Translations under genes and position numbers: made by a program | From: Humibacillus sp. DSM 29435 | GTDB taxonomy: Bacteria > Actinomycetota > Actinomycetes > Actinomycetales > Dermatophilaceae | Assembly (NCBI RefSeq): GCF_001758225.1 | Contig: NZ_MAST01000001.1 | Span: 372,001-436,000, forward strand | Direction of reading: 5' to 3' | Length of the DNA stretch: 64,000 nt | Shown here: positions 35,011 through 35,715 of the stretch, piece after piece | Position numbering within the stretch: position 1 is the stretch's first letter | Layout: each line of letters begins with the position of its first letter | The notes under the pieces: model-generated | What the model saw: the letters and a program-made list of their open reading frames with translations, nothing else | The model's database searches: none | What the model was told of the DNA's origin: nothing

Positions 35011-35062
35011 GGCCTCCGGCTCCGAACACGTGATGAGCGCACAGCAGCGCGCACCACGCTTG

Positions 35063-35134
35063 GGCGGCTGGCCCGTTGAGGTACGTTAACCGCCACCCCA
35101 GAAGCCTGGCATCGCGAGAGCGAGCCAGGCTTTT
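35063..35134 (+). ncRNA. Candidate structured RNA, copy 1 (32-bp element plus hairpin)
   Basis: The 32-bp block 35063-35094 (starts GGCGGCTGGC, ends GTTAACCGCC) recurs exactly at 35563-35594. Seven bases later comes a hairpin: 9-bp stem AAGCCTGGC/GCCAGGCTT (35102-35110 with 35124-35132), one unpaired A (35111), a 4-bp stem TCGC/GCGA and a GAGA tetraloop, then T residues. The second copy has the same layout with another stem sequence, which supports a paired RNA. It is 53 bp after the NTF2-like stop. It could also be a repeat-associated transcription terminator. Confidence 0.45.
35102..35134 (+). terminator. Rho-independent terminator candidate
   Basis: Strong hairpin with a 9-bp outer stem, a 4-bp inner stem, a GNRA-type loop and TTTT at 35131-35134. 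It would end transcripts of the sugar cluster and forms the 3' part of the candidate RNA copy 1. Confidence 0.65.
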
Positions 35135-35189
35135 CGGGTTGTCGAACGGGCCGGTTGTCATTCTGGCCGGGGCCGGGGCCGGGCAGGTC

Positions 35190-35438
35190 TCAGCCCACGT
35201 AGCCCTCGACCGTCTTCTCGCTGCGCACCGACGCCTCTTCGGGGTTCTCGCCGAACTCCCGCTTGGCGCGGCGCTGGCGCAGCAGGTCCCAGCACTGGTC
35301 GAGCTCGACCTCCAGAGACCGAAGGCGACGGTGCCCGTCGTCTGGGGTGATGCTGCCCTGCTGGAGCGCGGTGCGCAGCCGGTGCTCCTCGTCGATGAGC
35401 GACCCGATGTGTTCCTGGATGTTCACGTCTTCAGCCAT
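35190..35438 (-). CDS. DUF2630 family protein
   Basis: 82 residues from ATG 35438 (MAEDVNIQEHIG). It matches the small actinobacterial DUF2630 family: SLIDEEHRLRTAL, LRSLEVELDQCWDLLRQRRAKREFG and SVRSEKTVEGYVG. Two helices with strong heptad character suggest a coiled-coil hairpin. Function is unknown. It lies alone between the two 32-bp direct repeats. A longer in-frame start at 35486 lacks family similarity. Confidence 0.85.
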   Translation of the reverse strand: MAEDVNIQEHIGSLIDEEHRLRTALQQGSITPDDGHRRLRSLEVELDQCWDLLRQRRAKREFGENPEEASVRSEKTVEGYVG

Positions 35439-35562
35439 CTCGCCACTATGGCACGACGCAGTCGGGACCGAAATGCGATGTATCAACCAGCGCGAGGAGC
35501 GCTCTGAGGGGCAGGGATGGTGCGGGGAGTTGGGGGACGCCCCGCACCACCCAGACAGCTTT

Positions 35563-35630
35563 GGCGGCTGGCCCGTTGAGGTACGTTAACCGCCGACAGG
35601 AGCCCGGACCCCGCACCGGGGCCGGGCTCC
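35563..35630 (+). ncRNA. Candidate structured RNA, copy 2 (32-bp element plus hairpin)
   Basis: 35563-35594 is identical to 35063-35094. After four bases there is a hairpin: 9-bp stem GGAGCCCGG/CCGGGCTCC (35599-35607 with 35622-35630), one unpaired A (35608), then CCCC/GGGG (35609-35612 with 35618-35621) closing a small loop. The stem sequence differs completely from copy 1, while stem length, bulged A position and inner stem length are kept. Only weak T residues follow. Confidence 0.45.
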
Positions 35631-35715
35631 TCTACGTTCGCCACGTCCCTTCGGGCCGCTTGCGTTCCTCAGCGTCCAAAGCGTCCAAAGCGTCCACCCC
35701 GTGGCGGGCCGAACG

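Follow-up and report, generated by a model that had tools for sequence, protein, structure and literature searches.

How does one genome come to carry two identical 32-nt blocks at a distance of 500 nt, both with a hairpin downstream, and do these twins belong to an RNA? The question is raised by a stretch of 64,000 nt from Humibacillus sp. DSM 29435 (contig NZ_MAST01000001.1, positions 372,001 to 436,000), in the following termed the window, for which an initial annotation had proposed a candidate new structured RNA. The two blocks (copy 1, 35063–35094, and copy 2, 35563–35594, both on the plus strand; GGCGGCTGGCCCGTTGAGGTACGTTAACCGCC) agree in 32 of 32 nt and flank a DUF2630 gene (Pfam PF10944, 35190–35438, minus strand), just as had been described. 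A search of the 5.02-Mb genome for a third copy found none, leaving the total at two, and 100 dinucleotide shuffles did not yield a single match to the block at up to three mismatches. What had escaped notice is the nature of the 32-nt block, which forms the conserved, folded core of the element: it folds on its own, with a GGCGG...CCGCC stem that encloses a near-invariant interior. As a whole, the predicted RNAs fold better than 200 of 200 shuffled sequences (z = −6.0 for copy 1 and −3.5 for copy 2). Unlike the identical cores of the window, those of the same-genus relative (L022) differ from each other at 5 of the 32 positions, which suggests that gene conversion has recently acted in the window genome or that one copy has diverged in the relative.

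Each core is indeed followed by a GC-rich hairpin with a single unpaired A on the 5′ side. The hairpin of copy 1 (35100–35134, plus strand) consists of an outer stem of 11 bp, the unpaired A, an inner stem of 4 bp and a GAGA loop, with the outer arm ending in TTTT on its 3′ side, while that of copy 2 (35598–35631, plus strand) has 10 bp, the unpaired A, 5 bp and a CAC loop. The outer stems, originally counted as 9 bp, are thus longer, and the inner stem of 4 bp holds for copy 1 only. The view that the two stems share almost no sequence applies to the inner stems, which differ throughout, and not to the outer arms (AGAAGCCTGG / AGGAGCCCGG), which are identical at 8 of 10 positions and contain the two compensated changes. 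Two hairpins in one genome are weak grounds for a structured RNA, and it is the comparative evidence that carries the claim.

A covariance search for copies in relatives had been set beforehand as one test, and further copies were found. A pattern search, together with a covariance model derived from 27 copies (R1), retrieved true members from 22 of 188 genomes of the same family, with E values between 3e-17 and 7e-5 under the model. The carriers belong to nine genera, within which every sampled genome is positive, and include Terrabacter, Terracoccus, Humibacillus xanthopallidus, Intrasporangium (I. oryzae, I. flavum and I. chromatireducens) and Lapillicoccus. Each genome has between one and three copies, in syntenic positions: two or three, in most cases three, in Terrabacter (as grouped here), and one or two in the other genera. 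In the same-genus genome G001, both copies occupy the equivalent location, with a spacing of 526 nt. Five weaker matches within the family (E 0.005–0.045) turned out on inspection to be simple terminators or coding sequence, and recurrent matches to AGCCCGTCGAGGAACATGAACC within the family lacked stem and hairpin. Outside the family, the covariance search of 396 genomes of the order returned plain terminators or coding sequence throughout, and one-mismatch matches, which we take as chance, were all that a pattern search yielded in 395 genomes of the class. A pattern scan of 84,980 species genomes found true members in the same clade only; its matches in Promicromonospora, Hamadaea, Roseicyclus, Natronospirales, Acetothermia and Alphaproteobacteria came without stem and hairpin. 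Plasmid matches comprised the terminator sequence alone, in Streptomyces, and phages and viral contigs contained no member. Within the sequences searched, the family is restricted to a clade of Intrasporangiaceae/Dermatophilaceae.

The homologues share the consensus AGACTTnG RCGGYTGGCCCGTTGWGGTACGTKAACCGYC, followed by the hairpin. Their cores align nearly without gaps in 22 distinct rows, and compensatory changes are present in the core stem (GRCGG/CCGYC, GGTGG/CCACC). The second pair of this stem is GC in 10 rows, AU in 7 and GU in 5, and the third is CG in 20 and UA in one. Double-change cells in the stem number 8 compared with 1.5 in shuffled alignments, a value reached in none of 500 shuffles, and sliding the register by one to three columns leaves no double change at all; as the shuffles ignore relatedness, this outcome is supportive and not to be read as a probability. 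G025 offers a further compensated change, A-U for G-C at pair 5 (GGCGATT...AATCGTC), which the automatic alignment misplaced. The stem is otherwise mostly invariant: true covariation in the alignment is confined to two pairs, three pairs show no variation and are uninformative, and the sixth is C.A in the Terrabacter type termed A below. The interior of the core, TGGCCCGnnGnGGyACG, is nearly fixed. A simple loop seed is disfavored, since variation falls in the predicted apical loop (GNNGN) and the paired or bulged portion does not change; the modeled core looks more like a shape for recognition.

Downstream of the core, a terminator-like hairpin is present in all members but one (29 members in total, G021 being the exception). 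Across the homologues its sequence has changed and its structure has been kept, with compensatory pairs in the alignment. Most tails 3′ of the hairpin are poor in T, and scanning the window region with strict terminator criteria reported no terminator at these elements; with such tails, termination is no more than a likely role for the hairpin. The exceptional copy from Intrasporangium oryzae (G021; L023:4103–4134) adjoins DUF2630, has no clear terminator hairpin, has one broken stem pair and overlaps at its end with the end of an opposite-strand neighbor gene. This copy may be decaying.

The regions upstream of the cores are conserved in their own right and differ between copies. Copy 2 is preceded by a pair of motifs, GTATCA-N18-CTGA (35480–35507, plus strand), and by a 5′ hairpin that the initial annotation had also missed (35515–35552, plus strand; GGTGCGGGG...CCCCGCACC, with a G-rich loop). 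The inverted repeat of this hairpin is kept with compensatory changes in Terrabacter and in genus g26, where the equivalent reads GGAGCGGGA...TCCCGCTCC. Upstream of copy 1, comparison with L022 outlines a region (35015–35062, plus strand) with a small hairpin, GCGCACAGCAGCGC, which is probably promoter plus 5′ leader; the block is visibly conserved with G001, though the preceding gene differs. Among the Terrabacter copies, types A, B1 and B2 can be distinguished, the upstream region being conserved within each type and different between types. Type A, common to copy 2 of the window, has GTATCA-N18-CTG followed by the GGTGCGGGG...CCCCGCACC hairpin with its G-rich loop; in type B1, three GCAAG-like direct repeats with a spacing of 11 bp accompany a GTCGTC/GACGAC hairpin; and in type B2, a CCTGGG/CCCAGG hairpin goes with a conserved block. 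The B1 repeats (L069, about 1920–1970, and relatives) resemble a response-regulator binding site.

The motif GTATCR-N18/19-CTG occurs upstream of 12 of the 29 members, which include close relatives and are not 29 independent cases, at 42–128 nt from the core, with an expectation of 0.006 per 170-nt interval of the same loci. It is absent from over half of the members, copy 1 among these. Because its internal spacing is fixed and its distance to the core is variable, we consider the pair promoter-like. A scan of the window region for the sigma-70 consensus found none, and as the hexamers of the motif do not fit that consensus, our guess is that an alternative sigma factor or an activator reads the motif. 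In the window's own genome, GTATCR-N18/19-CTGA has 18 matches, compared with one for the reversed pattern. Two of them (C23:40499 and 40541) point away from each other across 14 bp, and several of the 18 look coding. The matches may mark a regulon controlled by an alternative sigma factor or an activator.

Do the neighboring genes belong to the system? DUF2630 adjoins a copy in three genera, including that of the window and two Intrasporangium genomes, and it does not lie upstream of the type A copy in Terrabacter, where the motif and the 5′ hairpin of copy 2 persist although the preceding gene is a different one. DUF2630 is probably not part of the RNA system and a mere neighbor in some genera. 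Other copies lie near genes for GH15-like (a label assigned by eye)/ACT, OTCase, inositol phosphatase, flavodoxin-like or arabinofuranosidase proteins, and the copies examined have no downstream gene in common.

We regard it as probable that the copies are paralogous genes of one clade-restricted small-RNA family, with a common core, different upstream control and action in trans, because they are free-standing, have their own upstream signals, a covarying core and a terminator-like hairpin, and occur as few syntenic copies. A co-oriented SnoaL-like gene ends 53 nt before the start of copy 1, and a terminator-like hairpin follows the core in every member except G021, so that core and hairpin could instead form a 3′-UTR or terminator module that ends upstream mRNAs and sets their stability or processing, without any free sRNA. 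This is unlikely, given that the preceding gene differs even within the genus (SnoaL-like in the window genome, alpha/beta hydrolase in the congener), that a divergent gene precedes copy 2 and several other copies, and that the conserved upstream motifs suggest promoters of their own.

That the block acts as DNA, as an operator, recombination site or small mobile repeat, might be concluded from an exact 32-nt repeat with identical copies in one genome, but it is very improbable: there are just one to three syntenic copies per genome and none in plasmids, phages or viral contigs, the compensation in the stem and the one-sided terminator-like hairpin point to RNA, and the short near-palindrome TTGAGGTACGTTAA is not kept in relatives. 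We give hardly any credence to a cis-acting riboswitch or attenuator, in which the core would be the aptamer and the terminator hairpin the expression platform. A compact conserved core directly 5′ of a terminator-like hairpin is the arrangement such an element would have, but no conserved co-oriented gene lies downstream, where DUF2630 and other minus-strand genes follow, and no antiterminator is evident because the stems of core and terminator do not overlap.

Known families do not account for the element either. Rfam 15 returned no match at the gathering thresholds for the window and six homologous loci, and below the thresholds matches were at chance level, none of them credible, in agreement with the initial annotation, which had named no matching family. 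The proposal of a new structured RNA is thus supported by the further copies in relatives, by the lack of an Rfam family and by the covarying core stem. The 6C RNA of Actinobacteria is likewise a short sRNA with hairpins and without a known target. It owes its name to two loops that each contain about six cytosines (PMC4046766); neither such loops in sequence or folds nor an Rfam match were found here, which rules out this identity. The G-run loop of the hairpin upstream of copy 2 (35515–35552) is a mirror of the 6C RNA C-run loops. The ANTAR-target RNA, common in Actinobacteria, also has two adjacent hairpins. Its definition calls for a pair of hexanucleotide loops with A1 and G4 (PMC8164766), and it is ruled out by the predicted loops, GUUGW in the core and GAGA or CAC in the terminator. 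The closest parallel in organization is provided by sibling sRNAs (LhrC of Listeria, the sibling sRNAs of Neisseria, duplicated CsrB), which likewise occur as several copies per genome with a common core, each copy with its own control region, as the differing upstream regions would provide here. At least two homologous genes per genome, as in siblings, are present in the window genome (two), its congener (two) and Terrabacter (two to three), although their sRNA nature is inferred; unlike those siblings, the family has no Rfam relationship to them and is limited to one actinobacterial clade. Actinobacterial trans sRNAs have a mean length of 90 nt (PMC4046766). Trans sRNAs of such a length are ordinary in Actinobacteria, and sRNAs in several separately controlled copies are likewise familiar. 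For these soil actinobacteria, no sRNA study turned up in a limited search of the literature.

Under the small-RNA reading, each gene would give rise to an RNA of about 80–120 nt, with a 5′ part that varies and often forms a hairpin, then a short linker (AGACTTnG or nGCTTnG), the 32-nt folded core and the 3′ terminator-like hairpin; the transcript of copy 2 would probably extend from about 35513 to about 35635. The different upstream control regions may feed different signals into one regulator, and one account of multicopy sRNAs describes how differential regulation of the copies lets different signals enter one network (PMC6262261). Perfect or near-perfect complements of the core were sought as mRNA targets, and the search returned only its own genes and chance matches, with no conserved target. 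From the sequences, we infer that the conserved core most likely binds a protein or mRNAs, with the RNA acting in trans. A more speculative picture, which we find rather doubtful, is that the core is a compact protein- or ligand-binding RNA fold not seen before, with the variable apical loop and the fixed internal bulge (GGCCCG NN G N GGYACG) as recognition surface, and that a distinct promoter class (GTATCA-N18-CTGA), along with other regulators, activates the copies, which would form a clade-specific regulatory hub. The analysis adds to the soil actinobacteria an RNA family that is well bounded and offers a covarying core, natural paralogues and alignments ready for use, and its two or three copies per genome, which differ in their upstream regions, provide a usable case for the duplication of sRNA genes and their acquisition of new control.
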